Below, in pieces: positions 9,988 through 58,299 of a stretch of 64,000 bases of DNA. The translations under genes and the position numbers were made by a program. Origin of the DNA: Daucus carota subsp. sativus (lineage: Eukaryota; Streptophyta; Magnoliopsida; Apiales; Apiaceae); the NCBI RefSeq assembly GCF_001625215.2, contig NC_030384.2, positions 41,946,390 through 42,010,389 on the forward strand. The letters run 5' to 3'. Position 1 is the first letter of the stretch, and every line of letters starts with the position of its first letter. The notes beneath the pieces were generated by a model that was given only the letters and a program-made list of their open reading frames with translations, did no database searches and was not told the DNA's origin.

Positions 9988-10060
9988 TACTTGTACTATG
10001 TTTGTGGTATGCTTGTGCTATGTTTTTTCTCCTAATGTTTGCTATTTTTTCTCCGAGCAG

Positions 10061-17227: not shown

Positions 17228-17420
17228 CGGTTTTTCTAGTATGTGCCCATGGGCACATGCTAAGCGCGGACTTTTATAAATTTGGGAGGTTTTGATTGGC
17301 TTTTGCATGTTAATAATGGTGGACCCCCCTGCAAATGCAACAACCACACCAATCAAAACCTCCCAAACTTATAAAACTCCGCGCTTAGAATGTGCCCATG
17401 GGCACACACTAGACAAACCC
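17228..17420. mobile_element. Mutator-type MITE, 193 bp
   Basis: The arms of about 80 bp are inverted copies of each other, sharing the blocks TGTGCCCATGGGCACA, TAAGCGCGGA and GGGAGGTTTTGATTGG. The element is flanked by a perfect 9-bp duplication TTATAAAAT (17219-17227 and 17421-17429). The duplication length places it with Mutator-type elements. It lies about 0.6 kb upstream of the BAG6-like gene. Confidence 0.93.
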
Positions 17421-17864
17421 TTATAAAATAACTGTCTCAACACCAAAATTTTGAAATTGAAAATAACTTTATTCATAGTACACTAAAATTGAAATTAAAT
17501 TATTTACTCATATAAAAGAAAGCGAGAAGAACCACTTTTGAAAAATTACTTTTAAAATGGAATACCAACATAGCATATATCATATATGTTTCTAAAACGA
17601 AAATCATAAGATATATAATATAAACCACGATATGAAAATAAAGAAAAAAATGTGTAGAGAAAAAGAAGAGAAAAAGAAAAAGAAATGCAGGTCAACAAGT
17701 CAAAGGGGGCAGTATCGAAGTCCATTAGATCCTTCTGGAACGGACGGATCCGCACGCGCGTAGGTAATAGAAAAACCTCAAACCACCCAAAGACCCAAAC
17801 CAAAACAACAACAATAGGCAATAGCATCTCTTGTTTCATCGGAATCTACAAAACCCCCCTCCTC

Positions 17865-29270: not shown

Positions 29271-32200
29271 CACACATATGTCCTTTTCACTTTAGCAAAA
29301 TAAATCATATAATTAATAAATAAATCAAATAAAGCATGTCTTACTGCTCGGCCATTGTTCCCCTGTACTCTAAGTCACGCACCTGATTACCCAGTTAATG
29401 CATTAACCAAACTGATTATCACACATGTGCTCAGACTCAATTTATTATTATAAAATTCAATGATCACCACTCCTGAACAAATCAAAACTCTCACCTATAT
29501 TAGTAATTATATACACATGAACTCTAATTCGGATTTTAAAGACTAAACCTACAAATTGGAGCCCTAAAATAAAATATAATCTTATAATTTAAACAAGTAT
29601 CTTGACAACAATACAAACTTAATACTATAAGTGACACTCTGTTCCTCCGCATGTTATCATCAATTCCTTTACACACATTAATTAAGAATAATTGTACACC
29701 ACCTGTACCCAATGTTCATATGCCAAATAAGTCATGCGCCAATCAACAACCAAAATAACGTAAATCTTAATTAACTAATATGTCCTGAAAGTATATATTA
29801 AACATAGAACATGATATCACTAATAAGCAGTAGAGTACCTCTTGCTTATAATCTTCACGACACAAACCTCTTCCCTGGCCTGCTCTCTCTCTCGCCGTGG
29901 CTATTCACTTGTTTCTTAGGGTTTTGTTAACAACAATATGTTTATATAAATAGCTTTTTAAATATCCTATGACTAGCAGGACTCTAACAATTAATATTAA
30001 TATTCTTATAATCTAATTACTAGTTCTATTTTAAATCAATTCATTTTAAAACAAATACTATTATTAACTGAAATTACTAATTCTTTTACCAATCAAGTTA
30101 CTAAACTAATATTATTAATTCTATTCTAATTCAGATATATTAATAATAATAAATAAATACGGATATTACATTAAGATTCTCATTTCCCTTATATTTATTG
30201 CCAACTATTATTTTGGAGGTTGGCGGTCCACAATTATTGTATTCATATCTGATATTAAATTATTAATTGTTAAAAATGGTTTGTTTGATTGTAACATTGT
30301 TAAATGTATATATACTTAAGGTTCAACACTCATATTTTGTTGAACCTCTATTATGCAACACCTTGGTGAAAGTTTCAGTTATTTAAAGAAATGCTGCCAT
30401 GGTGGTTGTATACAAGCTCACTTATTTACAACGATTTAACAGTTGATATAACAAACTTTCAATTAATTTCATAAATGTCACCACACCCGGTGCAGCACAT
30501 GTTTAACGAGTGGTCAACATTTTTAAAAAAGTTTCTTAATCTTCTACAGCAACCTCTACCTTTAATTGTGTGTGTGTGTGTTTGTATATAAATATTTATT
30601 TTAAACAGGGCATGTTTTGAATGATTTTGTGTAGTCTTGCTCTTCTGTTGTAGTTCATATTTTATCAACATTTTTAAAAAAGTTTCTTAATATTCTATAG
30701 TTCTTAATCTTCTATAGTAACCTATCCCTTTTTATTGTTTATATGCGTGTGTGTGTGTGTGTGTTTGTATATAAATATATATTTTAAACAGGACATGTTT
30801 TGAATGATTTTGCGTGGTCTTGCTCTTCTGTTGTAGTTCATATTTTGTTATTTTGATTAAGAGTTCTTTCTTTGAATAGAGATGCTACCTTGTATGCTCT
30901 TGGTGTTGGAGCATGTGCAACAAATGCTTTAGATGAAAAAGAGCTCAAATATGTTTACCACGAAGATGGGCAGAAATTCATTAAGGTACTACAAAGTTGC
31001 CAAGTGATTGGCTATATCAGTAGATGAGAAACCTACCACTTCTTGTATTCGATATAGTTGATTGGTGATGCCTCTTATTCAATGTATGTTGTGTGGGTTT
31101 GTAGCTTCAAATTGCAAGTAGTCTAGGAAAGTAGTTTGTAAAATTTCTAAGTTCTATATTCATCTTAATTAATTTAATGCTGGTAGAGATATTATTATTA
31201 TTATTTCTAACTCTTACATATCTTGTACAAACTTTCTGCTTGTAGGTCTTGCCAACTTTTGCAGCTATATACTCACTTGGATCAATAAATATTGGGGAAA
31301 TACCTGGAATGTCGTAAGTATACCTATCATGTACTCTACTCTGTCTCTTTTTTTTTTAACTGTATTTTTGCCCAAGTGAGCAGAACAATATTTATTGTTG
31401 CTAGATTTGATCCGCGTCTATTATTGCATGGACAACAATTCATAGAAATCTACAGGCCATTGCCTACTCATGGTTGTGTAAGGTTCTCAACCTCAAGTTT
31501 TATATTATAAGAAGTTTGTGATTTCCAAGGATATGCATGGCCTCTTTTTTAGGTTGGTGTGCAAATTTGAGATTATACTTTCTTGTATATGGATTAATAA
31601 TACTCTCTATTGGAGTCTTGGAGAATTTTCAGTTTATGGGTGTCTGTTCAATTATTTAAAAAAAGAAGGAAAAAGAATTAAAGAATCCATTTCTGCTACC
31701 TATCATGAATTTTAATTACCAACATTTATTGTTACAAATTCTGAAATTTCTTGTTGATGCAGATACGGAATAAAACCAGTGTTGTAGGACTTCATGATAA
31801 AGGTTTGTTTTTGAGTCAATATTAAGAGCACAGCAAATATTATTTGTATGACGTTTTTTCAGAGTTCATATTCTATGTATATTATAATTAGTTTTAGTGC
31901 AGTGATGGTAGACTGGTTGCGATATTATTATTACCTATAGGCAACTAGTTTATTAAGTTCTCATATTCCTAGACATATATGTAATCTGATTGGTGTTACC
32001 TATTAAATAAACTCTCTTTTGTTTATATTCCGGCATGCCTTCTTTTAGGTAAAGCTGCCATTATGGAACTTGAAGTTACAAGTTATGGGGAGTCCTCTGA
32101 TGAGCCAATCTGCATGAACCGGCAAGTTCCTAAACAGTGATTGATGTATATATGAGTTATATGCACTTTAGTTACCAAGTATCTTTGCAGGTTGACTCTA

Positions 32201-35200
32201 TTTTTACGGGGCGCAGGTGGCTTCTCAAAATCACCACACCCATATTCTTACACAAACTATTCCGCAAATCAGAACTTAGCTTTTAAACATCCTAAAAGCC
32301 GGCCATTTGCAGTTCATGAGGAATGTACGCAGCCCTCCCAGGTACGTCACATGTTTTTATGGTCTTTGACTTTTTGCTAATACTGGAACTGTTCATTTTT
32401 CTTTATTATGGATTTATCTTGATTGTAATCCTACCGTGGTCGATAGTGTTGAGACTTTGAGAGTGTTGACATTTGAAGTAGATGAATATGGATTTGATGA
32501 TAAATGATGAGAATTGCTTGATTCGCTTCAGTTTATGTTTATAAAAATGGGGATCATTGCACCATGTTAAGAAAACCTATCAGTGATTTTATCTCATATA
32601 GTAACTTCCTGTAATTTGAATTAAGAACACAAATAACTTTTACACGTCAATAAAAAAAAACATTAGGAATCAAGAGGAATAACGCCAAGTTATTTTACTT
32701 TTTCTTACATTTTTCTCCTGTTTGACGAGGCAATTATGCCCCTAGTGTGTGTAGCTCTGTAGCTAATATATACTCGCTTTGTAATATGTATGACCAAATA
32801 AAGTAGTATATAACATAAAACAAGGACAGAGAGACATGGAGGTACCATAAAATACTGACTGATGTGAATATCGAGCAGGGTGAGATTGTTTGGTCGCATT
32901 GAGCTTAGATTTCAAAATGAGAAGTGAGGATGAGTAATAGACTAAAAATCAATCTTAATAAAGAAATATCTGAACACAAGTAGTATCACGCTGCTTCACT
33001 TTTGTACCTTTAGTAGCAGTAGCAGAGGGCCGAATTTGTCATATTAGGCTCACCTTAAAGGAAAAGGCAGTTACGAACTGTTACCGGAAACTGACTCTGA
33101 CTAGCTTGGGAGTTGAACATGACAAACCCTAAAAATTTGTGAGCTTCAAGTCTCAAAAAGTAATGTCCAAAATTGATGCAGGACAAGGTTAAGAAAAAGG
33201 GGTAAAAAAGGAATAGGAAAAAATACATGGTATATTATTAGATTAAATATTTATCGATTCGTTATATATAATTATGTCAAACAACAAAGTTTACAGTTAT
33301 TTTTATATAGATCCTAAAAGTTGGAGGAAAAGTACAAATTTTAAGTTAAAGGATACTAATTTAAAGAATTATTTAGTTTCAGAATACGTAACTATTACCC
33401 TATGTGTAGATTATAAAATAGTCCTAATTAGATAATACAATTATTTAATTATAAATACAGGTATATATAAATAATAATATATAAATTTTAACGACTTGTA
33501 TAATTGTTTTTTGCTTTGCATCTCTCCTGAAAAACAACCCGAACTCGAGTTTTGAAGTGAAGAATAGGGGGGAAAAAAAGAAGAGAGGCTCGAACAAGGC
33601 TAAACAGAGGATGTACATAATAACGCGACCAGGAGCAATTGATTGAATGAAATCCTGGAAGCAAGGGTATATGTCAAATTTATGTTTGACTTCATTATTT
33701 CCCTGTGACATCTGGCATGTTCATGGAGAAACTTCAATTCACTGACATTCTTGTATGGTGTCCACATTATCAACTTAGACCTGGTCAGATAGATGAAGAA
33801 CTAGAACATCAAATTTAGGATAAACAAGCTCTTTAATACTTGCACTGCCAAATTATCTCTAAATCTGGTAATAATATTTGGAGATGTCTTATGGAATTCC
33901 TCGACATTACAAGGTTTTACAGGAGATACAAGTTTTATCAACTACATGCATAACTTATCTTATAGCTTCTCCTGATTCGTCTTAGATGTCTCTTAAAGTC
34001 ATACTCGTTCAATTGTTTACGGTCCATCTCCTATACTTCATATTTACCACTTATCAGTGACTGCATAATACTCGCAATCTTACATAATATACTAAGAATT
34101 TTGGCTCTTAGTATCATTTGATGCAGGGCAAAATTAGGTAAAGGGTAGACATAGGTGTGAACAAGGTCAAACAAAGGGATAAAACCTATCTGCGGCGAGT
34201 CCATGAAGACAAATACAACCTTAAATTTATTATAATATATGTTTATATATGCTATTTATATGGGAAAAGGGTTTCTAATAAATATATTTATAATATCAAA
34301 CTCTGTCAAAGAATAAATATTACAACTGTTTGAATGGAGATCCTAAAGATTTGGTGAATGAGTAAAAATCCTAAATGGACACAAAATTTAACAACTATCT
34401 TATTTTCTGATGATAATTATTACCATATATCTAATTGTTAAACATTCTTGATCAGAAATAACTATATAGAAAGATCAACTGTTTTGATCCTTCTACACAT
34501 CAATGATATATTTGCAGCTGACATGAACGTTTTTGCTTTCTGTAATCTGTTCGAATTTCTTTAGAAATCCTGAAATTAAATGTTGCTGTTGTGCAGGCGT
34601 TGGTCTACAGGCTCTCTGGTGACTATAACCCTTTGCACTCTGATCCAAAATTTGCAGGAACGGCAGGGTAAGTGCATTAACCAATTGCAGACTAAACATT
34701 TTTCTCCTCATACAAGTAATGTTTTTCTTAGTTGGTACATCCTATTGTTGGGGCAGCAATTCTAACCCAAAAATACATTACTCCTCTCAGTTTATAATTA
34801 TATGGATCTCCTTTTGGCCTGTGTTACGGATCTTAGCTAATTGGATTGGTAAAGTGAAAAACAATAGTTTTCTTGTCCCCCTCCCTAACTTTATATCTAA
34901 ATTTACATTGTCAAGATTTTCTCGCCCTATACTGCACGGACTGTGCACTCTTGGTTTTGCGGTTAGAGCTATTATTAGATGTATATGTGGAGGAGACCCA
35001 GACATTGTCAAGAGCATATCAGGTCGATTACTTCTGCATGTGTACCCTGGCGAAACATTGATAACTGAAATGTGGCTAGAAGGCTTGAGGTGTTGTATTA
35101 TGTTACATTCTAATGATCTGATTTCTGTATGGTCTTTATTCTAGGACTTACAAAAAAATTGAATGTGCAGTGTTATGTATCAAGTGAAGGTGAAAGAACG

Positions 35201-35258
35201 AAATAAGACAGTCCTGTCTGGTATTGTGAATCTCAACCGTCCGGCTTCAACTTTGTGA
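26868..35258 (+). CDS. ECH2: Enoyl-CoA hydratase 2, peroxisomal, 307 aa
   Basis: Eleven exons in phase: 26868-26924, 27059-27081, 30880-30985, 31246-31313, 31405-31477, 31763-31802, 32049-32121, 32191-32341, 34597-34667, 34916-35089 and 35171-35258 (924 nt). The protein follows Arabidopsis ECH2 from end to end, including RDATLYALGVGACATNALDE, FDPRLLLHGQQFIEIYRPLP and RPILHGLCTLGFAV. The hydratase-2 signature YRLSGDYNPLHSDPKFA lies near residues 201-217, with its Asp (about 206) and His (about 211) as catalytic residues. The enzyme adds water to 2-trans-enoyl-CoA to give the (R)-3-hydroxyacyl-CoA, serving peroxisomal breakdown of fatty acids with even-numbered cis double bonds. It ends in STL, where Arabidopsis (from memory) ends in SSL, so peroxisomal import would rely on a weak C-terminal signal. 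The intron after 32121 has a GC donor. Intron 2 (3.8 kb) holds a solo LTR and a MITE. Confidence 0.93.
27413..27913. mobile_element. Mutator-type MITE in ECH2 intron 2, 501 bp
   Basis: The ends AGGGTGTCATATCAAAGTGG and the complement of GGCCACTTTGATATGAAACCC match. Inverted similarity continues for about 115 bp (for example TACTCAAATCACTAT in both arms). The flanks GAACATATA (27404-27412) and GAAAATATA (27914-27922) are a 9-bp duplication with one mismatch. There is no coding region. Confidence 0.82.
28088..30170 (-). mobile_element. Solo LTR (retrotransposon) in ECH2 intron 2, 2,083 bp
   Basis: The sequence starts TGTAACACCCC and ends GGATATTACA, so it has the TG...CA termini with longer inverted TGTAA/TTACA ends. 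It is flanked by a perfect 5-bp duplication TTAAG (28083-28087 and 30171-30175). No internal retrotransposon genes and no second LTR are present. Read on the minus strand it has a TATA box (CTATTTATATAAAC, about 29,942-29,955), followed by an AAAACCCTAAG leader and a GA-rich tract, so its own promoter points against the ECH2 gene. A (TA)28 run at 29205-29260 followed by (CA)n lies within it. A Ty3/gypsy origin is likely from size and ends, but unproven. Confidence 0.88.
29205..29276. repeat. (TA)n(CA)n microsatellite
   Basis: Twenty-eight uninterrupted TA units are followed directly by a short CA tract, inside the solo LTR. Confidence 0.95.
30524..30848. repeat. Tandem duplication with GT microsatellites before ECH2 exon 3
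   Basis: A segment starting TCAACATTTTTAAAAAAGTT at 30524 restarts at 30665. Both copies contain a (GT)n tract, TTTGTATATAAATAT, TTTTAAACAGG and TTGCTCTTCTGTTGTAGTTC in the same order. The second copy is longer through a small internal duplication (AGTTCTTAATCTTCTATAG) and an expanded GT tract. It ends about 30 bases before the exon 3 acceptor at 30879. Confidence 0.9.
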
Positions 35259-37127
35259 ACTCTATGCTGCGTACTATCATTCCTGAAGGGTGTTGGGACC
35301 TTGATTGTGTAAAATGATCTGTGTATGAAATGCTGTAGCGGATACTTTGAAATAAAAATTGGACTACCACAACACCAAATTACATGTATAATAATAGTTT
35401 TTGTACGAGTACATGTGTAAATGCAGTTCAATTGTATTCTATAGACAATTTGATGAAGTTGCCTCAAGTTTTAGGCCGAGTAAAAGAGGTACTGCATAGG
35501 TTAGCCGATGCCAGGCAGCGCTTGAACTTTTTCACTCTCAATATCTATTGTCAAATGAGTTAATTGTAGAACTTGTCTTTTGATTTGGTCCAATTACATT
35601 TTATTACCTAAATTTTAAATAATTTATTATTATTATTATCATTATTATAACATCTATATTTATGCTACTTTAAGATGTATTTTTACTCATTACCGGTTAA
35701 AGTTGGTCAATTTGCCAATAAAGTGTTGGTGCGTTGGTTAAGCTGGGTGTGCAAGTGTAATCAATTAGCAAAAAAAAAATTGGTTAATCGATTATAAAAA
35801 ATCAAACAAGATAAAAGAAGTGAGACGATCCATCCACGGAAAAGAACTACAACGGAGAGATCAGAAGGTAACCCTACATGTTTGACATAAAAAGTGTATG
35901 TATTACTACTATATTCGGTCCATAGAATCGCAATAATGATAAGAAGCGTCGTCTTCCTCGGCTTAATGATTCATGTCTTGAAACTCAACGCATCACTACT
36001 TTCCCCCACCATTCCTTCATCGATCTCTTCAAATTTCAAGCAAACAAACATCTCTCTGACTCTCTCTCTCCCCCTCACGTGACAAACAGTAGTGTTCCAT
36101 GCATCATCCATCATCACGCACATATAATTGAGAGTAGTAATTGCTTTCATGTCCTCAACTTTTGTGTGATCTTTTTAGTTTCTGCATGCTGTCCATGTCC
36201 CTCTCATGCAATAATTTCTTCAGTATGTTTGGATATTGGGCTGTTTATGAAAACTTTACAAGAACGAGGAACACATATTCATTACAAATTTACAAGTATC
36301 ATTAATACACACTCGCATGCATGCTGCATGCACAATAAGTAATGGGAGTCCTACGCTTTACGAGTCTCTTGGGCCCAACCTTTTTCTCAAGACAATGTGC
36401 TGCTTCGTTTGAGAGAAGTAGAAGCCGCTTCTGACCTGTGATTTTCTTGACTCGTTTGTATAAATAAGTGAAGTATTTTTAAGAAGTTGAAAATATTAGT
36501 TTTTTCTCGAAACTCCTGACATTTTATTAATTAATTTATTTTTCATTTTTGATCTACTTATTTTAAACAAAAAATTATTTTTTTAAATTTGACCGAATAA
36601 TTCCTGTGATTCTGTGAACAAGACTGACATGTCAAAACTAGTTCTTTCACGATTACACTGGCAGTAATATGAATACAATTGGAAGATGGGTAGATATGAA
36701 TTACTGATGAAGCAATAAATTAAGTAGAAGTAGGGGGTGGGCAGCTACAGCCTATAGGGCTATAGCTAGTTAGTTAGTAGTTGTAGAGCAGCGCTACGAC
36801 ATCAATACAGACTCAGGCTATGCATTTATTCTGCACGCATGATCTTTCATCTCCCTTAGATAGCTCAACGATTCAACTTTTAACTTTGAAGCTTTTCTCA
36901 ACACTGGCTGCTTAATATTGAGTCGGAATCATATGTAGCAACGATTTAACTGATTATTTATCGATATCATGAGTTGAAAATATTTCAGTTTATACTTTAC
37001 ACATTCATTTTCGCAAATCAGTGAAACAGTGGAAGAATTGAAGAGAAAGTGAAAGAAAGAAAAGTACAGTAGTCGATAAGAGCTTCATTGAACGTTGGTG
37101 CTAACTAAAATTGCTTGAAAAGATAAA
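35259..37127. other. 3' flank of ECH2 and intergenic DNA
   Basis: ECH2 3' UTR to about 35,480, then non-coding DNA. A stretch near 36,390-36,530 rich in AGAAGCAGAAGC-like words resembles 59,280-59,510 and may be a shared old repeat. No gene is supported. Confidence 0.45.
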
Positions 37128-38022
37128 GGGAAATCTACAAAATTATCTACCTTTTTTTTTATTATTTTCAAAAATACTACTTTCCAGAATTATTTTTAAA
37201 AATACCTTTTCATAAATTTTTTTTTTAAAATACTGTTTGCAACTTTTGCAACCTCATTTGCAACTACAGGCGGCGCCAGCCGTGTTGCAACCTGATTTCA
37301 AGTTCCAGTTTTCAAATGTCATTTTCGACCTCATTTTCGGAATCGATATATAATATATCGATTCCGAAAATGAGGTCGAAAATGACATTTGAAAACTGGA
37401 ACTTGAAATCAGGATTTGTAATTGCATATATGGTTGCATATGGTTGTATTCAGTTGCATATGGTTGCATTCAGTTGATTCTATTGTAATCTAATGGCCCC
37501 GCTAGGGGCACACCATACATCTGTTGTTACTTACAGTTTTCAGTTGCATTTAGTTGCAACTGAGGTTGCAAAAGTTGCAACTGCAGTTGCAACCTCATTT
37601 GCAACTTTTGCAACCTCATTTACAACTATATATAGTTTTCAGTTGCATTTAGTTGCAACTGAGGTTGCAAATGAAGTTGCAACTGCAGTTGCAAAGTTGC
37701 AACTGCAGTTGCAACCTCTTTTGCAACCTCATTTGCAACTTTTGCAACTTACAGTTTTCAGTTGAACTAGTTGCAATTGCAGTTGCAACAGTTGCAACTT
37801 TCCATTTTTATTTGCAATTTTTGCAACCTCATTTGCAACTTTTGCAAACTCATTTGCAACTTTTACGGCTGCGCCGCTCAAGGTTGCAAATGAGGTTGCA
37901 AAAGTTGCAAATCGTATTTTTGAAAAAAAAATTTTATGAAAAGGTATTTTTAAAAACAATGAAAAAGATGGTAGTATTTTTAAAAAAATAATTTTACAGA
38001 TGGGTATTTTTAAAAAGATCCC
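37128..38022. mobile_element. Non-autonomous Mutator-type element, 895 bp, with internal palindrome
   Basis: A perfect 9-bp duplication AAAGATAAA (37119-37127 and 38023-38031) flanks ends that are loosely inverted: GGGAAATCTACAAAATTATC on the left and, complemented, GGGATCTTTTTAAAAATACC on the right. Both arms carry A/T-rich AAAATAC words, then TTTGCAACTTTTGCAACCTC. The centre is an array of TTGCAA-containing words in both orientations (about 37,238-37,910) and a 123-bp perfect palindrome. The reading frames through the array are Leu/Gln or Ala/Thr repeats and not genes. Confidence 0.88.
37291..37413. repeat. Perfect 61-bp inverted repeat with 1-base spacer
   Basis: The left arm starts CCTGATTTCAAGTTCCAG (37291) and the right arm ends CTGGAACTTGAAATCAGG (37413). 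All 61 base pairs match, centred on the A at 37352. A transcript could form an uninterrupted hairpin. It lies inside the 895-bp Mutator-type element. Confidence 0.97.
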
Positions 38023-39103
38023 AAAGATAAATTATCAAAATTATTATTATTTTATTTTCTCTCTCTTTGTTTGTATTTTTTGACAATTTTTACATAAAAA
38101 ATTATTCCAATGGCTGGCATCCAAAATTGACACATATTTAAACAAGTATAATAAGATATATTTTTTAGGGTCATATATACAATTTTTTATATTTTAGGAG
38201 AGTGCTAAAAGCTGACAATTTTACTTGACACTTCTTGCACTATGATGGAAGCTAACAAAAGTGTCATGACACATGACATTTTAGCACTTTTTTTACACTC
38301 TCGTTGGAGTTGCTCCGATTGGTGCGGTAAATAATGAGGCAGGAGGGAGAGGAGAGATGGTCACGACTCACAAGGGAAGCTGGCTATGGAGGGGTTGTGG
38401 ACGTGATGAGTGCGACGTCTCAGACGACAAAAGAGATGGAAACAAACCAACTTATTTATTGATGCCTGCTGCTTCTGCTTCTGCATTCAGGATTCGTATC
38501 TCTCTCTATCCTCATCTCCTGGTCAAGGATTCATATGTTGAGCTGGGCTGGTTGGGGGGTTTATTTGTCTTGGAAAAGGAGATGCATCAATGCTAATGCC
38601 ATCATTCATACCATCTCACCTACCTACCATTACCATTATACTGGATTACAAAGGGATGTTACGAGTTACAAAAATCGGACTTAATCGGTGGAGTCACTGA
38701 ACAAGGATTAATCTGTGGTCAATTGGATTGATCGGATTAATCGGACGATTAATGAAATAATCGGATATTTAATCAGTTTATCCAGGGATAGAACAGAGAT
38801 TAATCGTGATTAATCACTGATTTTCGGAACATAACAAGCAACTAAAAGAATTTAAAAATTTGCGTCAAACACCCCTATAATATTATTAGACTTAAGAGAA
38901 AGACTCCAATTTAGAAATAAAATATTCAAATTGCCTGCAGGCTGCATGCATGAGCATCAAGCCATTAACCAACAACTCAACGAGAAGTGATGAAATGAAT
39001 CTAAAGAAATACTCCACACACTACCGTAGAGAAAGACTGTAGTCATATCTTCACTGGGTGCAGGCAGAAAAGCAGCAAAGACAACTGTATAGTATGTCTT
39101 ATT
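38023..39103. other. Intergenic DNA with a probable decayed MITE
   Basis: At about 38,200-38,317 the words AGTGCTAAAA and TTTTAGCACT form an inverted pair, and the right side ends GTTGGAGTTGCTCC, a motif common at MITE ends. The matching left end is missing. The stretch 38,340-38,600 is GC-richer with an open frame of 79 codons that resembles nothing I know. At 38,670-38,820 GATTAATC words recur. No gene is supported. Confidence 0.4.
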
Positions 39104-39568
39104 TAGGAGTGTAAACGAGTCAAACTATTCGTGAAACTATTCGTGAGATATTCGAGCTCGACTTGTGAAGTGTTCGGATTTGATTTAGTAATAATCAAGC
39201 CGAGCTCGATCTATTTGAATATTTTACCGAGCCAAGCTCGAGCTTTGAATCACTCGGCTCATAAGGTTCGCGAGCGTTAGAGAGCCTCTAATATATTTTT
39301 TTAATTTTTTATTATAAATATATTATTACAAAAATATTTAATATTTGATTTATAATTTATATATTTTAATCGAATCAAACTCGAGCAGAACCGATCATAT
39401 TTTGAGTTTTTATCAATATTTGGTGATCACTTGATTCGAGTTTTCGAGTCGAAGTCGAAGCTATCGAACGAGTACTTGCAAGCCACTTGAGCTCGAGTCC
39501 TGGACTTCTCAGTTAAGGTCGAACCAAGCCTGACAATGTTCAACTCGACTCGGCTCGATTACACCCTA
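39104..39568. mobile_element. Non-autonomous hAT element, 465 bp
   Basis: The left end TAGGAGTGTAAACGAGTC and the complemented right end TAGGGTGTAATCGAGCC are imperfect inverted copies of the TAGGGGTG type. The flanks GTCTTATT and GTCATACT could be an aged 8-bp duplication (six of eight bases agree). The interior is full of GAGCTCG/CGAGCTCGA words in both orientations, parallel in design to the CCGAAC-rich hAT element at 1841-2439. Confidence 0.75.
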
Positions 39569-40262
39569 GTCATACTACACTGCTGCACAATCCTACGTGG
39601 TATCCGTCGTCTAAGGCAGATATAGAGAGAAGCTACCCTCTTGCATGCTGTCTGTCTGCTGTTATGCTTCCGACTTTCCGAGTGATGGATGGTTTCAACC
39701 TCATTATCATTTGCCCATTTGACTATAACCTACCTACGTACGTACTCTCGCCATCCTTTCAAATCAGACAACCAGCACCTCCGGTCTCTAACAATAATTA
39801 GCGGGGTTTTTTGGGAATAATTTACTTTTAATATTTTGATATAAATATATGTATAAAGATCATTCTTTCCTGTTCTATTAAATTTTATATGCGGTCGGAT
39901 TTATACTAAAATTTTGAAATATTCGAGTACAGAGAGGTCATAATTTTTCAGTTTAATCATGAATAAATTTTTAATTATCTAAATTTATTATTTACATATA
40001 ATTTATCATTTATAAGGAGTTTTAAACATAATGATCAATTAATTATTAATATTTTTCAACTTCAACGAAAGTTAAGATTATTGTTCTACCTATAAATTAT
40101 ATTATAGAACATAGTGCGATATGATTTATAAAAATAAATATTTTATCTTTTAATTACAATAATCATGTTTATGTTATACGACACCGAAAAGAGTATTACT
40201 GTATTATATACACGGAAAAGAGTATAAAAGCTAATCCATGTACTAGTACCACTTCATCACTG

Positions 40263-40418
40263 TATTATATACACTTTGAGCTTCACTCACACCGGCCTAG
40301 CTCTCCAAAGAGTGGTGATAGTTAGAAGATTGCTTCAGTGTGTAAAATCAAGATTGGTGCAATCGCAGATACGATAACATACGTAGGCGGTGGTCACTGG
40401 TGGTTTAACAAAGGGCTT
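40263..40418 (+). promoter_or_regulatory. Putative MIR394 promoter and primary-transcript start
   Basis: A TATA box (TATTATATACAC, about 40,263-40,274) is followed about 30 bases later by a CA-containing start region, roughly 150 bases upstream of the microRNA hairpin. The spacing suits a Pol II microRNA gene. The assignment is by position and motif only. Confidence 0.45.
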
Positions 40419-40558
40419 CTTACATGAGTTGTTTTGGCATTCTGTCCACCTCCACTTTGATAAATATATATTTTCACTACTCTACTTTAAATCTTTATAT
40501 ATATCCAGCTAGACTGGGAAAGATGGAGGTGGGTATGCTGCCAACAGACCTCTGTTAG
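40419..40558 (+). ncRNA. MIR394: MIR394 microRNA precursor
   Basis: The 20-nt sequence TTGGCATTCTGTCCACCTCC at 40434-40453 is identical to mature plant miR394. Its opposite strand is GGAGGTGGGTATGCTGCCAA at 40525-40544. It pairs along the whole length with two mismatches and a few G-U pairs, and the offset copy at 40527-40546 (AGGTGGGTATGCTGCCAACA) is the expected star strand with a two-base 3' overhang. The pairing continues below the duplex (CTTACATGAG against CTCTGTTAG), and the loop is about 70 AT-rich bases. In known plants miR394 acts on the F-box gene LCR, is made in the outer cell layer of the shoot meristem, and affects stem-cell competence and leaf shape. The target is not in this window. 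Confidence 0.96.
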
Positions 40559-40618
40559 TCTCTCTTTGCAAAACCCCTTGTGATCCTTTTTCAAATCCTT
40601 CATCTCTATGTATAATCA

Positions 40619-40634
40619 CTCTCTCTCTCTCTCT
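40619..40634. repeat. (CT)8 microsatellite downstream of MIR394
   Basis: Eight uninterrupted CT units occur about 60 bases past the precursor. They may lie within the primary microRNA transcript. Confidence 0.85.
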
Positions 40635-41994
40635 ATCTACACTGTTCCGTTAGCTCTCACTATATATATGTGCTCGTTTGAGAATTTTCCATTTTAACTA
40701 ATTAATCATTTGTATTTTCCTTGATTTATTCTTCTCAGTCTCCTCCCGTTTCACTTGTCTGGTTTAAAAATTTGGCCCGACTTGTTGACACAACTCTTGT
40801 GAAAAGAGACCAATTTTTTGCTTCCTCATCTCTTGTGCAGATGTATATATAGTCTCCTACAGCAAAAAGCTAAAAGCTCCAGAATTCGGTGAAGGCGGTA
40901 TACATACATTAGATGATGTTATGGCTGGATTTACAAGTCACTAACAATCCTTGAAGTTCTAATCTAGTGCTATTTTTAGTTTGTCCGTCTCCTAATTGAT
41001 TGTTATACTAATAAATTATCAGTTATTTTCCTATATTTTTTTAATAAAATATCACGAATAAATTATAAGAATCGAACTTTTATGTATAAGTTGGTTTAGA
41101 GCATCCGGAGGATAAGTTGCTTTAGATCATATGGGGGATGTAAATCCTTAGCAATATCCTGCCGGCGACCACTCTTAAGAATGCGTAAAACCAAACCGAT
41201 AACAATATATTTCAATAATTTTTGTTGAATAAACCCTAATGATTATATTTACCCAATTTCTGCGGCGACTCTAGCAAAACTACTCTTACTTTCAAAATAT
41301 TTTTGATTTCCACATCGGTTCTTTACATGATCATAAATCATAATGGTATGATATAAGGAAAGTTACTCTACATGCAAAATATTTTAAATTTCTGCATCCA
41401 TTCAATAACTATACATGAACAGTATGACATGATATACACGCTTCTATTTATCATAATAATATAATATAAAATATGATTTCTATACATACGCTTCCATTTA
41501 TGATAATAATATGATATAAAATACGATTTCTATATATTAATATTGATATCGTAAAAAATTATTATTTCAAAGTTGGTCTTTTTTTTTTAAATAATATTTC
41601 AGAGTTAGTCTTTGAATGTATAAAAAGATAAATACTCTCCATCATCTTTTATATGTTCATATTAAAAAAAAGTTGTTTGTATAATTTTTTTTTCAATATC
41701 CCTAATTAATGTCTATAAAAGTAATAAATTCAATTAAGTTTTATAAATATAAATTATGGTGATACATTTGAAAATGTACGTAAAAGAGTACAGAGGGAGC
41801 AATTTGGTTGAATTCAAAGTAAGCATTCTCCTTTCCAACCCGCTTCATTTAAGCAATGAATATTATTTTCTATCATTATATCAAAATATCTACTATTTTA
41901 CGAAACTAAATTAGATATAAATGTTGACTAAGTATTGTATGTTCGTTATTTAGCAGAAAAAATAAGAATTTATTTCAAGAGAAAATAATTATAA
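40635..41994. other. Intergenic DNA downstream of MIR394
   Basis: AT-rich and non-coding. Two similar stretches (ATACGCTTCCATTTATGATAATAATATGAT and its neighbour) repeat at about 41,428-41,480 and 41,484-41,535, a short local duplication. Nothing else is recognised. Confidence 0.45.
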
Positions 41995-43326
41995 CTAGTT
42001 GAGAAGCCGCGCGTTGCGGCGGCCTATAAAAATTATATTAATGATTCAATATCAATATTTGTAGAATAAAATAATTTTGTGACTGTCTATAAAGTGTATA
42101 TTAATGTTTCAAAATTAATATTTGTAGGATAAAATAAATTTTATATTATAAAAATCTTGATGTAATACCAATACTGATATATAAAATTACAAAATTGGAC
42201 TATAATTTATGGTGAAAAAATGAAAATAAATTTTATTTGTGCTTCTTTTTTTTTAAAAAAGTAATCATATTCTTACATTGTCACCTTCCTTCAATTTTTT
42301 TGGATTGATTGTGCACAAAAATATCTAACTTAAATTTATGAGATAGCGGTCTATAACTATCCTTGCTTATAACAACCACTTAAAAGTTGCTTGAACGGAG
42401 CAAACAGATTATGCATGAATAATTTTTTCCCGTATACAAAGTAAATCAATATACTTATATCAAGGAGAAGCGAGGGGCGTGTAGGTGGCGCTTCTCACAT
42501 CGCTTCGTTCTATTTTTCTAATTTTCTGGAATTTTTGGATGAAAAATATCAAAAATTAGAACTATCTTTTTTAGTTTCGGGTATATTAGAAGTAGGTTTC
42601 TTCTATTTCATATTATTTATGGAATATAGTAGCTTGAAATTTTTAATCTGATTTTGTTTCTAATTATTTAATTATGAGAAAGAGTATATCATAGGGTTTT
42701 GGATCATCTAAACACAATCTTCTCTCTTTCAATAATTATTTAATTATAATATTTGTTTTGTTCATCGGACATGTTTGTTGTTGTTAATTTTTATATAATT
42801 TACTTTGTATATTATAAAAGAATAACCAACAAACATACATCACTAATAGTTAATTTGTTGATATCATCCATCAATATCATGTCAAGACTATATTCTTTTC
42901 CCGTATTTGGATTTGTCGACTCCCACATAACAGTCTATAACTACCTTTGCTTGCAACAACTTTTATTTTTTTTAATACTGTATAAATAGCCTTCACTTAT
43001 CGTTGCAGAAGAACGGCACCACCGAGTTAGAAATCAAGTAAGAGAACTATCACGAGAGAGAGGTAGGGTTGTGATACCTACGATATACTCTTTCTCATAA
43101 TTAAATAATTAGAAACAAAATCAGATTAAAAATTTCAAGCTACTATATTCCATAAATAATATGAAAGAGAAGAAACTTACTTATAATATACCCGAAACTA
43201 AAAAAGATAGTCCTAATTTTTGATATTTTTCATCCAAAAATTCCAGAAAATTAGAAAAATAGAACGAAGCGATGTGATAAGCGCCACCTACACGCCCATC
43301 GCTTCTCCTTTATATAAGTATATTGA
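41995..43326 (-). mobile_element. Helitron-like element with internal fold-back, 1,332 bp
   Basis: Read on the minus strand, the element begins TCAATATACTTATATAAAGG after an A (right edge 43326). It ends with the hairpin GCCGC-AACGC-GCGGC, a short spacer and CTAG, followed by T (left edge 41995). This is the Helitron plan: 5' TC, 3' hairpin plus CTRR, insertion between A and T, no duplication. Inside, the first 252 or so bases of the 5' end are present again in opposite orientation (42444-42695 against 43077-43328), making a large inverted repeat. No helicase gene is present, so it is non-autonomous. Confidence 0.75.
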
Positions 43327-43328
43327 TT
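42444..43328. repeat. Long inverted repeat, arms about 252 bp, loop 381 bp
   Basis: The left arm 42444-42695 and right arm 43077-43328 are near-perfect complements. Examples are AATCAATATACTTATAT with ATATAAGTATATTGATT, and GAGAAAGAGTATATC with GATATACTCTTTCTC. A handful of substitutions and small indels separate them. Part of the loop (AGTCTATAACTACCTTTGCT, about 42,931) resembles sequence just left of the repeat (GGTCTATAACTATCCTTGCT, about 42,350). Confidence 0.93.
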
Positions 43329-43816
43329 TTATATACTTTTTTGCTAAGTAAGTTCTTATTTCTGAAAAATAAAGTTAGCTAAACGGTCACTTATCTCTAG
43401 AGAACATAAGGCCAATACTTGAGAGATACTAAAGAATATACACGCAGCGACAAAGGTGAGTGTCACAGAATTATCCAAACAAGTAACGAGTTGAAACACA
43501 ACCGGAAGTATTATGATGGACTCATTTATGCAATGCCAGAGCCCAGAGGTGGGTATTAAGTAGCTTCTCCAAACCAATTTCAATGCAAAACTAGCTACTT
43601 GTCCTGCAGGTTAAAAGTGTAATAAATGATGAAGGAATTATTCAAAATTTCCAACTGCCCCGTTTTGGCATTTTCCCTTGGTCATGTCATTGAAGTTCAG
43701 TTTGTGTGCGCCAAAATTGCCATATTCAAATAATCAAATTAACAATTACTATAGCCTCTTCTCTGATTGTCTTTAGTTAAATTTGCCTAACTGTAGATGG
43801 CATTTCCAGCGAAAGA
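43327..43816. other. 3' flank of PUS10
   Basis: Downstream of the PUS10 stop codon (minus strand). It includes the likely 3' UTR and non-coding DNA, and no separate feature is seen. Confidence 0.5.
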
Positions 43817-46800
43817 CTACTGGATTTTCTCCGCTAGAAAGCAATCCATTTTTACATCTGTGACATCAAGTTGCAGTATCTCAGCTCTGCACCCCAGAAG
43901 TGAACCGATGCTGAAACAATTGAAAGTAAAAAGTTGTTCTCAATTCTACAAACTAGAAAAGCATTATGTGAAAGACTTGCGAGAACATGCTGTAAACGAT
44001 AAAAAAACTGCACATCTATTATGAGTGAAGAAAGCCAGAATCGTTACACTTCCAAATTCCAAACTGGATCCATATAAGAAAATGCCAAAACTGTTGCGAG
44101 ACACATTTACTGTACATCAATTGTACGAAGGAGAATAATATACTACACTAAACTGGTCCATACCTAGGATAAGTGCGTCCAAGATCTCCGTGAACAAATT
44201 CCTTAATATATGTCCCGGCCTGCATCAAAATACAATTTTCAGTCTGAAGAATATTTTTACCAGATACCAGATTTTAGTTTTTCTTTAACTGTCCTAGAGT
44301 CCGTGAAAAAGGTCATTTTCATCCCTCTAAGCTAGAGTATTCATTTCTCAATCCCCATACTAAACTTCCTCAAATACTAGTCAGTCATAACAGTGGGGAA
44401 TGGAGGAAATAATAGGATACATGAGAGGAAAGCAGGCAATAGTTGTCATTAGAACATTGCTTTACATCTTTATAGTTTATAAAAGAAAACCTCGTTTTTC
44501 TATCCAACAGAATATTCAGAAATTTGATATATATATTTTATACTAAAGAAAATATATTTATACCAAGGGAAACAATTTTTGCAGCCTGGTGGTATAATAG
44601 GCGTGCATTAATCGGCAACCGGATGTAAAATGAAAGAGAAGGTATAGATTGTACCTGGGTACAAAGATGCAAGAGGAAATACTGAGAACTTGCAGCAATT
44701 TTCTCAATTTTCATCCTGGTTTTAAAAAATTGTTCCAAATAGGCATTTAATATTAATAATCCATATATCTAACTAAGTAACCGGAACTGCAGAGGTGTAA
44801 ATCATATTACCAATGTATAATCTTTTCACGCTCTAGTGGACTTCGACGGTGGAGAACCCTTACGGGCGTCTTCTGCAACAATTTCTGGAGAATAAAGAAG
44901 AAAAAAGTGTACTAAAAATGATTATAATAACATGAAAATCTAATAAAAGAGCACACAAAATTACAAACCCATGAAAATTTCTCATTATGGCAACTTAGGT
45001 AAGCAAGAAAACAATATTAAAGATTTGGAAATTTCACATAAAAAAATCAATGAATTCCCGGAAAAATTCCACAATCTGATTGCAAGCATAACCGTTGTAT
45101 GCACAAGATGAATTGTACATAAAAAAAGAGAACAAGATAAAGCCACTCTTTAAACTGTAAATTAGAGGTCAGCACAGCAGCAATACCCAACATATAAAGG
45201 GTGTTAAGAATAAGAAGTATCTAACCATGTCTTTGAATGATGATATAGTCTCCAAATCATCATCCTTGAGAACGCGAGAAATCCAGACTAGAGCAACATA
45301 TTGTTTCTGCATGAAATGCACGGGATAGAAATATGCCTATATCCTGAGTTACAATACCACTAGAACTATGTGCAGCCAAACTACTAACTATGAAAAACTG
45401 AATCTCACCTGCTTTTCTGCTTCTCCTTCACGCATCAAGTTCCATGCTTCACTACCTAGGACCTTGAGATTTTTCACCATAACCTGGTTGCGGCAATGTG
45501 TTAAAGGCTTAAATGAAAAAGGAGTCCTGGCAAGAAAAAAAGGAAGTGAATGTGCAAGACAACTCACATGTCTACTCTCATGGCAATTTATTCTACTTTC
45601 TATTTCACATATAGATACATCAGAAGGGGCCAGCCGTGCATTTTGAATCTCGATCAGGAAAGGCCTACCTGAACCCAACATCCGGACCTGAAGAAGTAAA
45701 TCAATGGTCAGCTCAGAAGTAAAATTTTGTAGTAACATGCATATACAAGCTACATTCTATACATCAATATCCTCTCTGCCAGCTGCATGAAATTTGTAAC
45801 CGTCACCCAGGCACGTAGGAAGGATATTGCCACCTATAATTTCCTACAAAGAATCCAAGTTGAATTATTTATATGTCCAAAACCTACTTCAAAAATAAAC
45901 ACAACATAATCAGCTAATAAAACCACTGTACTTCAACAGATGCTTCTCCCATCCTCTCATCATCAATTATCCATCGACTCTGGCTTACATTTCGTGAGTA
46001 CTGCATTGGAAATGAATATCATTATATCAACTGAAAAGTAGACCTAAGATGGTAAAAAAATGTACTATTTAATTTAATGTCAGAATATGCAGTTACACAA
46101 CTTGATATATGTAAGAAAACTCCTGAAGCTTGTACATGCCCACATCATGATGTACTTGGGGTACAAAAATATTTGTTGATTATATCAAGCAAAGCCATGC
46201 GAATTTACCAACCAATGCCTAATGAGTCCAATCAAGATTTAAATAAAACATGAAGTGGCCAGACTTCAAAACTTTATATATACAATATTATTCTTGTCAA
46301 AAGTTTCTGAGCTTGTAACTACATTCCAAAGGAAACACCTCAAAACACCGGATATTAAGCCTTAGCTTTCAATCATGAGATATGGTATCATTGTGCCTCT
46401 AGATGCACTAATCAACAGAAACATCAACACATACTAGGTAGTATCTGCCCACAAATAAACAGTCTATGTCTGGTACATAATACACATGGCCTCTTTTACA
46501 CATTCCTTAAATTCATATTTTCTTTTAACAAACCACCACAAGCCAATGTAAAGTGTGAGAGACTTTTTTTCTACTATTAGGTGCAAGAGACTATTGTAAC
46601 ATGCATTTAGTCTTGTAAATTGTGTTAAGGCAAATTTAATGACCCAACAATCCTTGGCTGAGGCTCAAGCAATTCCGTCCAGGTCGGGCTTTGACACCAC
46701 AGTCCAAAATCACTTGCCTAAAACAGAAACAATTTGAGGTCAACAAGCTTACATCATTTGTTGTTGTCCTTAGAATTATATTTTAGTCTGACATGCTGAT

Positions 46801-49800
46801 AACTTATCAGCACGTTCCACATATTGCAATGTGGAACAGTGTCCTTACTAACTCCCCCTCTTAAACTTGCGACATATTGCAATGTCACCATCACTATCTC
46901 ACCCCGCTAATTTCGTACCTATTCGTTGCCCCATTAAATGAACTATGTGCGACCAGTTGAAAGTTATATGCATTGCTAATAAAACAAATATCTTATCACA
47001 TATTTTACTCATCAATTTCAGTAATATATAGATTTTTATCACTAAGTATTGATTGTTATTCAATTTGGGGATTATACTTGGGGTAGAGATTTGTTCTAGC
47101 CTCTACGGTTCAAATCTCCACACTATATGTATATACAAGTGTTGTCCTACATCATATACCCAATTAAGAGTTTTATAAATCAATATCATATCACTTGTAA
47201 GAAGGTCTTGGTCTCTAACTATAACCAAAGTATAAACTTCTCCATTGTTTAGTACACATCCAAAAATATGTTTATCACATTACTGACATTGTCCAGCATG
47301 TATTATATCAGATTCTACTATAAAGGTGCAAATTAAATGTCTTAATCACTAAAGAAAATGTGACACAAAGTTTCATAAATTCTTATTTGTAACATTCATT
47401 GACTACATAAACATAGAGGATTCCTATTTTCCAACCTCAGAACATTTTGTAGAATTGATAGTAGTTAAATAATTCTGTAACACCTTTTTCGTCTAAAACG
47501 ATCCTTTTACATGCGACAGCTTTAACAGCATTAGACAAATCATGGATGCTTGATATCAGGAAATGTCGGAACTCGGAAGTTATTCCACTTATAGCCATAC
47601 TAAATTAGAATTTTGAACAGGTCACCATACCTTCAAGTATCTCCCTCCAATGTACATAGGAGCCCTAGAGCAAGCAAATGTCAGGTGACATGGTTGGTTG
47701 ACCTAAAACAAAAAACGTCAACAGATAAAAAGCACCATCAAATCGATTTACCTTGTTAAAATAATAATAGATGCCGAGCTAGAAGGCTTGGGATACACTA
47801 AAATTCAACATTTAAGATACATGACAAAAAAGTACTCTATCAAGGGTATAGCGGTGTCAAAACTAGAACTATAAATTAAAAATGTGAGAGTACCTTCTCC
47901 AAATGGCAATCAGGATTTTCATGATTTTCCAACCCTTTAGCAGGAAAACTTTCCAGGGACCCATGTTCTTCACTGGCGCCTACATTTGAATTTTCAGTGT
48001 CAGCAGTAGGCACTATAGAATTGGAGTCCACTCCATCTGCACCTTTCCATTACGAACAGTTGATTGAACATTAAAAGTTGTTGGTAAACAAGGTTGCACC
48101 ACAGAATAAACACAGCGCGAAAAAGAACATATTACAAAATTTATATACTTAAAAGTAACATATATCGTATATATTCAAGCTCTTATGGCTGCTATTACAA
48201 TAAGCTAGAAAGTGCAAATATACATCAGATTTTAATTTCTTTACTTTATTGTATTAGCCATCAAGCTTGCATTGTTTTTGTATGCTGCATTTCTCCAGAT
48301 TATATTATCAAGAAAATTTTAGAGCAACAATACAATAAACTAGTACTGTGAACAAAAAATATATACCTATTATCCATTTATCCCACAAATAATGGCATGG
48401 AGTATATGGTTTAAAGGTGTAAGTATCGTATATGGATTAGAGTCAATGGGTGGATTTCCTTGATACATTTTCAGCAAATACATTTGAGCACCTATAAGCC
48501 AAATACATTCCTACTCAAGAGCGTAAGTTAACAACATAATTTGATGCATAGAAAGATAGAACTAGAATAGACGTGCCTGTTTTCCTTCTCTTATTACACT
48601 GAATTTTCTCAGCAGTACTCTTTCCGTTCTTTGAAGCATCAAGATTAGTGTAGGTCAAACGAATTCGGAAAGAGCTCAGACCAGATTTAACACCCTGCAC
48701 AACACAAACTTTTATTTAGGAAATAGCCAGCCAATAATACTGCTACCTATCATTTTAGAACAGAAAAATTTGAAATTATGCTTTTCAGACAGAATTTTTT
48801 CAAGAAAAAAAAAATAATCAAAGAAATAAGGAAAGAACATGATACAGATTACCATTAGCGATTCAAGAGGACTTGTCAAAGACAGTTTGAAGACATCTTT
48901 TGTTGATATGAGTTCAGATTTAACAATTTTTTGATACCATTCTTCAGAGTGGTACTTCTTTTTAATAATGGACCTGAAATAATGTGGCAATGGCTAAATG
49001 CTTAATTTATTCTCTAATTAAAATTCTCTAATGAGAGAACACAAAATCATAAATACTTAAGAGGACTAAAAATTGTAAAGAGTGGACTTTAAGTCTCCAA
49101 GTACCAGGGTCGAAATGGGTTTTTCTAAGACTATGAAATAAGAAGAAAAGAAAGACATGACTAAGTTTTATAGTCCATACCTAATGCACACTCAGATGAA
49201 CTATGACTAGCACACATGTTGAAACTACTCCACTGACACTAAGAATTTCAATGTCGTTATAAGCCGCCATTTCACTTAACTGCTTGCAGGATCTTGTACC
49301 AAACTGGTTCTAAGTTAGTGTAGTTATAGACATGATATGTCCTAATAAACTTATTTATATTAAAAACTCCTAGAGTTGCTATCCTGGATAATAAAATCAA
49401 GAATACAAGGAAAACTCAAAAGACAACTCACCAAACTAAATTTTCATTTTCAGAGATGAGTGGCGGTAGGGAGACTTCAAGAGAAAAACTATCAACAAGA
49501 TGGCCTTCTTTCTTTACAGCATCAGCAATCATCAAAGCAAAGTCCCTGGCAGAATCACTTTTCACCAACACATTTTGTTGGTCATAGTACACAAACTGTA
49601 AGATACCTAAACAAATTCTACAGACATAATCCTCATTGATATTCAATTCCCCTTCCGACTCCGATCCGTTTTCAATATTAGAATATAACAGTGACGGAGA
49701 GAGCTTAGCACAAGAATATAAACACTCGTGTACAAGAAATATCCGGAAGATGCACCGAACGCACACCTACATTAAAACAATAGAAATAAAATCCAAACAC

Positions 49801-50332: not shown

Positions 50333-51285
50333 CCTATGCTCTGTATACAGTCTTACGGCGGGATGCTCACTCGTTTTAGTTTTACAGAACCAGGCTATAC
50401 TGTATTCTCTTGCAGCAAAGACTACATAGTCTTTTTCACTGATGATAATAATAATAATATGCACATTATGTTCTGCAACATAAACATCGTGATCAAATGG
50501 TAGAATAATTATTTTTATAAATTATAGGACTCGTTCTGCAATATAACTAATAAGCAGAACAATAATCTTAATACTTGTTAAAGTTGAAATATATTAATGA
50601 TTAATTGACAATTATGTGCAAGACAACTTATAAATGATAGATTATATCAAAATTTGGATAATCATAGATATTATATAGGATCAAACTAAAAAATTATGAT
50701 TTGTACTCCAATACTCCAATATTTTTATGTACTCCATAGAACTTAATATATGTATTTTAAAAGGTGGTGAATATGCTTCAAATTGGGAGTAATATTAGCA
50801 GATACTCCCACCGGAATCAAATTGATTTGTGAGTAAGCATTAGAATTTAGAAATCGTAGTTCAAGGGTAATATTTAAAAAAAAAAAATTATTTTGAAAAA
50901 AGAGGACAAATATTTTCTAATAATTTTGAAAAAAGACATGTAAGATGAAATAACATATAAAAGATATGAAAATATGTTTAAAATTATTAGTAAATAAATA
51001 CTCTTTCAATAATTAAATAATCTTCTCAAGTATGTAACATTCAAAAAATATTTTGCGATGATTATTTAAAAAAAGAAACATGTAAAAAGAAACAATAACA
51101 TATTACATATAAATGATATGAAGTTATATTTTAAAATTACTAATTACTAATATATAAATACTCCTTCAGTAATTAAATAATCTTCTCAAGTATATATGTT
51201 TTTAAATTTGTATTCATTCACTGAGGTTCCCTGGTATATGTGTGACAAAATATATAGAAACGTGAGTCATGATTTCATTTGTAAA
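50333..51285. other. Upstream region of PUS10, AT-rich
   Basis: Non-coding. An imperfect duplication is visible: TACTCTTTCAATAATTAAATAATCTTCTCAAGTAT at about 51,000 recurs as TACTCCTTCAGTAATTAAATAATCTTCTCAAGTAT at about 51,160, with GATATGAA... stretches before each. No gene is supported. Confidence 0.5.
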
Positions 51286-57200: not shown

Positions 57201-57528
57201 ATGGCGAGGGCTGAGAAGCCGGAGACTCCGTGTGGAAGTCGAAGTCACTAGAAGTATCGTTCGTGAAATCGTAGCTACTGTCTCTCCACATCTTGTTCGC
57301 CGGCGACTGGCCGGAGACTTTCGAAGTCAGTTCAGCTTCCGGGCTACTCTGGCCGGAGATTTTCACAACAACTTCATTATTATTATTATTATTACCACTA
57401 CTAACACCTTGCTTCGCTGCCATGGTGCTTTCTTGCTGCTCCAACAAGATTTGACGCTCTTCTTCAGATTGAGGCCGCTGAGCGTGTGAATCACCGGGCG
57501 ATTTAAAAGATTTTCTCAACATCTCCAT
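54209..57528 (-). CDS. Mechanosensitive ion channel MSL4/5/6-type, 843 aa
   Basis: Five minus-strand exons in phase: 55907-57528, 55508-55631, 54880-55173, 54583-54785 and 54209-54497 (2,532 nt). The long acidic, Ser/Asn-rich cytosolic N-terminus (residues 1 to about 220) includes DPPEMDGRSQRVVKSG and DEDDPFLEDDLPEEYK, both typical of this plant group. Four hydrophobic segments follow at about 223-247, 258-283, 296-322 and 337-362. After a long cytosolic loop come TM5 (about 609-628) and the pore-lining TM6 region that runs into HPFDVGDRCEVDGVQMVVEE, the MscS-domain core. The C-terminus ends in a soluble part (ENRTDHWYPAP onward). Such channels open on membrane tension, mostly at the plasma membrane, and pass anions. 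Assignment to the MSL4/5/6 group rather than MSL10 rests on length and motifs and is not final. Confidence 0.92.
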
Positions 57529-58299
57529 CGAACACTTGTATTTATACGACTGTTTTTTTTAATGCGAAGGTGTTTACGGGAATAGTTTAACGAGTGAAAG
57601 AAGATGAATCAGCAGGATAAAACTTGTTTATCTTGGGGAGCGGGTGAAAAGAAGCTAGAAGGGGTGAGCTGGCATTGGGAATCGCGAATGGGGCAGCGCC
57701 ATTAACGCCGATGGAGATGTGTTTTTAAATTTGGTAGAGGAGTGTTTAGTTCTCAGACAGAGATGGTAAAAAGTACGGGGCCGCGAGAATAATGTTTTTG
57801 TTTAGGTTAAGGTCGCTGACAGGTGTTCGCTTCCCTGTGTTTAAACTTGTTTAATTAATGGGACTGGTTTGTTTTTGTTTGACTTGTTTCAATTGCCTAT
57901 CAACTTCTTTTTCTTTTTTTAATTATTTGCGGGGTACAATAATTTTGGTAACATGATCGCGATGGGTTAATGGTTATGGGTTATGGCCTATCTTCGTTCA
58001 TATTGAAATTTATTTAATATTTTTTTATCATATTTTTTGAAATTTATTGATCAAATTTTAATCTCAAACATAAATTTATTCTTTGATGTTTTTTTGAGTT
58101 AAAAATTTGAACCTTATAATATACTGAATATTGTTTATGATCATAATTTTTAAATAATAATTATTATAATAGAATATAAATTATTTTCATTATAGAGCCG
58201 TTCAATTCGATCAAAATAATAAACTAAACTGAACGATGGAGTGTTAAATTTTGTTTTGAGATACTTAGCTGGATTTGGGGATATCCATTTAACCATATA
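57529..58299 (-). promoter_or_regulatory. Upstream region of the MSL gene
   Basis: Divergent non-coding DNA containing the leader and promoter of the minus-strand channel gene. No specific motif is strong enough to name. Confidence 0.4.

Follow-up and report, generated by a model that had tools for sequence, protein, structure and literature searches.

An intergenic MIR394 gene between ECH2 and PUS10

Introduction

Among plant small RNAs, miR394 is well known for modulating shoot stem cells and the shape of leaves. Within the 64-kb stretch of DNA analysed here (the window), a sequence identical to it lies on the + strand in an interval devoid of recognizable proteins, raising the question of whether the locus is a genuine and working MIR394 gene or something that only resembles one. 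We find that it is a genuine MIR394 gene, an ordinary new locus of a known family, and that, with transcription and function judged from that family, it is very likely a functional MIR394 gene of a plant, most probably of a flowering plant.

Results

Identity of the mature strand and family match

An earlier note on this DNA had equated 20 bases of the window with mature miR394. The correspondence is exact: TTGGCATTCTGTCCACCTCC shows no mismatch to miR394 and is the sole match with three or fewer mismatches on either strand of the window, where the mean expected by chance is 0.01 (1 of 100 shuffles gave a match). Exact scans for TTGGCATTCTGTCCACCTCC returned 0 stretches in viral contigs and 0 in genome contigs, records of the window's own genome possibly being excluded from these scans, which indicates that the 20-mer is not common. 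In Table 3 of PMC6376759, 65 sequences, drawn from 40 species, carry this same mature form.

The Rfam MIR394 model RF00688 aligns over its entire length (positions 1-109 of 109) to the + strand with 72.8 bits (E 2.1e-13), compared with a curated gathering score of 60 bits, and the interval that it matches coincides to the base with the one delimited in the earlier note (40419-40558). Above gathering scores, the whole window contains one further Rfam match, a tRNA at 1590-1662 typed by ARAGORN as tRNA-Glu(CTC). In a permissive Rfam scan the opposite strand of the hairpin reached 45.6 bits, a difference that favours the + strand. The locus shares with the RF00688 family (Arabidopsis, poplar, soybean, grasses and others) the mature 20-mer, its place on the 5′ arm, the duplex mismatches and the star. 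It differs in length, with 140 bases matched to the 109-position model and the excess mainly in the AT-rich loop, and at miR position 12, where the Rfam consensus has C whereas the window and published miR394 have U.

Table 1 Features of the MIR394 locus and its surroundings (window coordinates)
Feature	Position	Strand	Remarks
Left neighbour, peroxisomal enoyl-CoA hydratase 2 (ECH2)	30836..35258	+	First matched stretch to stop
AT-rich dispersed repeat	39908..40169	+	Ends 265 bases upstream of miR394; inverted copy 50477-50725, 75% identical
Best TATA-box candidate, TATAAAA	40223..40229	+	211 bases upstream of miR394; weak, not above background
Lower stem, 5′ side	40402..40433	+	MFE pair table: 40419-40433, 3x3 loop at 40416-40418, then 40402-40415
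MIR394 precursor hairpin	40419..40558	+	Extent of RF00688 match
Mature miR394, 5′ arm	40434..40453	+	0 mismatches; identical to sequence common to most species
Upper stem and AT-rich terminal loop	40454..40526	+	73 nt
miR394* / miR394-3p, 3′ arm	40527..40546	+	2-nt 3′ overhang register
Lower stem, 3′ side	40547..40575	+	MFE pair table; contains poplar miR394-3p match
Right neighbour, PUS10 pseudouridine synthase	44163..49622	-	Span of matched domains

Hairpin and star strand

Folding 40400-40580, the check that had been proposed, gave the expected hairpin at -52.6 kcal/mol (z -3.92; 0 of 200 shuffles equally good); the antisense strand folds equally well (-53.6 kcal/mol). Among 1596 sampled + strand stretches of 181 nt (one per 40 bases, overlapping, with the hairpin's own stretches included), 53 reach -52.6 kcal/mol or lower, and the lowest energies belong to repeat hairpins near 37.2-37.8 kb. 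Because so many sampled stretches fold equally well, folding energy alone was dropped as evidence for MIR394.

In the overhang register of the star arm, AGGTGGGTATGCTGCCAACA, miR394 lies opposite 40525-40544 with 15 Watson-Crick pairs, 3 G-U pairs and 2 mismatches, so that 18 of 20 positions can pair, in keeping with the near-complementary star claimed downstream on the same strand. The arms start 93 bases apart rather than the 91 given in the earlier note, whose own coordinates (40434 and 40527) also yield 93; the roughly 70-base, AT-rich loop that it described corresponds to the 73 AT-rich nucleotides between miR and star. The two mismatches, at miR positions 7 and 9, fall within the 3x3 internal loop of the Rfam consensus, and the MFE structure pairs 17 of the 20 miR bases, all with the star arm, leaving positions 7-9 as the same internal loop. 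Large bulges across the duplex had been named in advance as a sign against the gene, and none was found beyond this 3x3 loop with its two true mismatches. Pairing between miR394 and the star arm recurs in each of the four extents folded (140 to 505 nt), with a mean pairing probability of 0.80.

Annotation of plant MIRNA genes calls for a hairpin shorter than 300 nt with at most five duplex mismatches and without large bulges. Including its lower stem, the hairpin measures 174 nt (40402-40575), has 2 duplex mismatches and forms a 3x3 internal loop in the MFE structure, and thus conforms structurally in length, mismatches and bulges.

Published star-register forms are identical to the star arm at 16 to 18 of 20 positions (16 of 19 for one), compared with 13 to 15 at their best places elsewhere in the window, a sequence comparison that also puts the overhang register in line with the star start known from the literature. 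Relative to the Rfam consensus, the star changes within the duplex only by C-to-U and A-to-G, both still G-U compatible and the second within the internal loop. Of the published forms in Table 3 of PMC6376759, one also has the U at star position 8; no star-register form in that table has the G at position 11.

Lower stem and predicted processing

Pairing was said to continue below the duplex, and the MFE pair table bears this out, with interruptions: a 15-nt lower stem (40419-40433) is followed by a 3x3 internal loop (40416-40418 / 40559-40561) and by further pairs beneath it. On the 3′ side, 40552-40571 is identical at 18 of 20 positions to poplar miR394-3p, a published small RNA that belongs to the lower stem, with 0 of 20000 simulated 221-nt stretches exceeding 16 and a best score of 14 elsewhere on the + strand. 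This match lies beyond the extent of the Rfam model, indicating that conservation extends past it. Soybean miR394a-3p was set aside as a second lower-stem match, since at 14 of 20 it scores no better here than at its best place in the rest of the window and provides no evidence. Collectively, the Rfam threshold passed, the correct fold with miR394 on the 5′ arm and a lower stem like poplar miR394-3p support the identification as MIR394.

According to PMC8688358, the first cut of base-to-loop processing is guided by an internal bulge that lies 15-17 bp beneath the duplex; miR394 is listed there as one of 14 families whose processing mode is conserved. The lower stem here is 15 nt long and so agrees with this rule in length, but 10 of its 15 bases are paired in the MFE structure. 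As the passages concerned name no mode for miR394, a base-to-loop mode is our inference. Of looser relevance, PMC9023350 names Arabidopsis pri-miR394b as one of the transcripts that are hardly processed co-transcriptionally. By family precedent, RNA polymerase II would produce a primary transcript from the + strand, in which the 15-nt lower stem above the internal loop would place DCL1 so that it cuts first at the base of the miR/miR* duplex, in the base-to-loop direction. A second cut would then free the duplex 40434-40453 / 40527-40546, the 5′ strand would be loaded into AGO1 as miR394, and the resulting complex would cleave or repress an LCR-like F-box mRNA, as in Arabidopsis.

Flanking genes

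MIR394 is intergenic, lying between ECH2 and PUS10. ECH2 was recognized by its MaoC domain and by matches to PDB 7mku in three frames (E 9.8e-28, 5.3e-26 and 2.8e-06), and PUS10, on the - strand, by Pus10_C in three frames (47.7, 36.5 and 30.6 bits, above 27) together with Pus10_N_euk at 19.6 bits, below its cut-off of 26.5. The ECH2 stop codon occupies 35256-35258, and when 35250-43900 was scanned in six frames, a single Pfam match reached E<=0.1, at 0.08 (13.3 bits compared with a cut-off of 27). With this stop codon and the scan lacking a valid match, the description of 35.3-43.8 kb as protein-free stands. ECH2 apparently ends in PASTL plus stop (35241-35258), unlike the SKL-type tail that we take to be typical of peroxisomal targeting signals.

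The wider neighbourhood comprises two BPS1-family open frames, a SWIM zinc finger, an AMP-binding enzyme, a ubiquitin-like domain and a protein kinase. Long open frames at 8977-10797, the second of which carries the SWIM zinc finger (10036-10797) as, we presume, Mutator-like transposases do, are probably a transposon. On the - strand, a 551-codon open frame at 55906-57558 has no Pfam match at E 0.01; it is possibly an MSL-type N-terminal exon, because a weak mechanosensitive-channel match lies on the same strand at about 54678-54782 (19.3 bits compared with a cut-off of 20.2). Also outside the gap are a very stable hairpin at 17241-17421 (-100 kcal/mol in 181 nt) and a 227-nt unit present in two tandem copies at 16427-16873 (89% matching).

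Comparison with the Arabidopsis MIR394 loci

We take Arabidopsis MIR394A to be At1g20375 and MIR394B to be At1g76135, tags that were not found in the literature searched. Published coordinates place AtPUS10, AT1G20410, at Chr1:7079049-7082504, AT1G20370 at 7051846-7053588 and AT1G76120 at 28558813-28560294 (PMC8910892), and a mutation in ECH2, AT1G76150, at 28575546 (PMC4756126). AtPUS10 is thus about 25 kb from AT1G20370, which adjoins the place assumed for MIR394A, and ECH2 is about 15 kb from AT1G76120, near the place assumed for MIR394B. At1g20370 and At1g76120 were themselves ruled out as PUS10, both being TruA-type (PMC8910892). No match to a TruA-type synthase or a prolyl oligopeptidase came from the parts of the window that were scanned, coverage being limited to single open frames or none on the - strand of 13-35 kb, on the + strand of 43.9-60 kb and over most of 1-13 kb.

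Whereas ECH2 and PUS10 flank one MIR394 in the window, Arabidopsis appears to split these neighbours over two duplicated segments. Since each Arabidopsis copy keeps one of the two window neighbours nearby, if the assumed positions hold, the published coordinates point to a probable history in which one unsplit ECH2-MIR394-PUS10 locus was ancestral to MIR394A and MIR394B and the neighbours were lost reciprocally after duplication. The literature matches listed for miR394 synteny contain no published statement of the ECH2-MIR394-PUS10 order, and our searches found no paper joining miR394 with pseudouridine synthase and enoyl-CoA hydratase, or combining any two of At1g20510, At1g20520, At1g76210 and DUF241. 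A search for MIR394B with At1g76 led to PMC6409982, in passages that do not concern position; PMC2947979, loosely relevant, describes At1g20370 as a source of phased siRNAs in passages that do not mention miR394.

Upstream region

The claim that the gene has its own TATA box about 150 bases upstream is weak. TATATA occurs 168 (at 40266) and 229 bases upstream of miR394, and TATAWAW 211, 307 and 343 bases upstream. With 182 occurrences on the + strand of the window, or 1.42 per 500 bases, about 1.5 TATAWAW would be expected in the 535 bases of 39900-40434, which contain 3. A TATA box was rejected as evidence for the gene's own promoter because the motif is near its background frequency, and by TATA-motif counts 39900-40434 contains no convincing promoter.

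The best TATA candidate starts 54 bases after the end of the dispersed repeat in this region; the repeat has no inverted repeat longer than 12 nt. About 855 bases separate its copy at 50477-50725 (-) from the first matched PUS10 domain, and the two copies share their relative orientation, one upstream of MIR394 (+) and the other upstream of that domain (-). Conceivably, though we think it unlikely, the repeat could be a transposon-derived control region common to MIR394 and PUS10; were this true, it would give the lineage its own miR394 expression pattern.

The promoter signal, not above background, and the repeat ending 265 bases upstream would also suit a decayed or silent paralogue, in which the hairpin is intact and no longer transcribed while another MIR394 copy does the work, and many species have two or more MIR394 sequences (PMC6376759, Table 3). 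A silent copy would, however, be expected to accumulate changes in the mature strand, whereas here the mature strand, star, duplex mismatches and lower stem retain the features of the family, and the flanking ECH2 and PUS10 resemble a conserved locus on an Arabidopsis map that is partly assumed. We therefore regard a silent paralogue as improbable and favour a functional MIR394 gene.

Repeats and foldbacks in the gap

The gap had also been called repeat-filled. Repeats are indeed present, but those detectable within the window, by internal comparison rather than with a repeat library, cover 1792 of its 8501 bases and none of 40419-40558. Two of its elements are strong foldbacks. The first, at 37159-37991, consists of nested TTGCAAC/GTTGCAA repeats with inverted ends (37159-37290 and 37854-37991, 81%) and contains a perfect 61-bp palindrome with a 1-nt spacer (37291-37413). 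No other sampled stretch folds into a stronger hairpin (about -117 kcal/mol per 181 nt here), and the element is a possible young siRNA or proto-MIR source. The second, at 42443-43329, is an inverted repeat with 253-nt arms, 97% complementary, that folds at -451 kcal/mol; its 381-nt spacer contains a TATAAATAG site, and it is possibly a hairpin siRNA locus or a foldback transposon.

The permissive Rfam scan listed 50 matches; at 37.29-37.92 kb in the gap they include MIR1319, MIR7807, MIR5185 and many more. These were rejected as other microRNA families: all fall below gathering scores and several score alike on both strands, indicating that they reflect perfect foldbacks and not families. A decayed second MIR394 hairpin was likewise rejected, as the arm 11-mers found outside the hairpin (43546, 43662 and 44081) are attributable to chance: 30 simulations gave 0 to 5 of them, 1.4 on average, compared with 3 in the window.

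The presence of two such foldbacks in the same gap raises the possibility of a transposon-derived or inverted-repeat siRNA locus that resembles miR394 by accident. We consider this extremely improbable, given that no base of the hairpin falls within a repeat copy in the window, the miR394 20-mer is unique there, the imperfections of the arms are family-specific and the Rfam scores differ between strands (72.8 and 45.6 bits), whereas the best match of the 37.3-kb perfect foldback scores 81.9 and 80.7 bits on its two strands. A chance 20-mer match, for which only the shortness of miR394 speaks, has a negligible probability beside an expectation of 0.01 even at three mismatches, the full-length covariance match and the additional conserved lower stem.

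Targets and significance

The site expected to match miR394 in F-box (LCR-like) transcripts is GGAGGTNGACAGAATGCCAA; apart from MIR394 itself, no miR394 site with three or fewer mismatches occurs in the 64-kb window. F-box genes are the main predicted miR394 targets across species (PMC6376759), and over-expression of MIR394a lowers LCR protein in Arabidopsis (PMC3870963). The latter source also ascribes to miR394 roles in responses to salt, drought and ABA and, citing other work, calls it a mobile signal of the protoderm. By family membership, this MIR394 would be expected to act in the meristem, the leaf and stress responses.

The locus places a regulator of stem cells and leaf shape where a protein-only annotation would miss one. 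The earlier note was right on this point, which is an ordinary one, as it applies to any MIR gene between protein genes. If confirmed across species, the order ECH2-MIR394-PUS10 would provide a landmark separating true MIR394 orthologues from stray copies.
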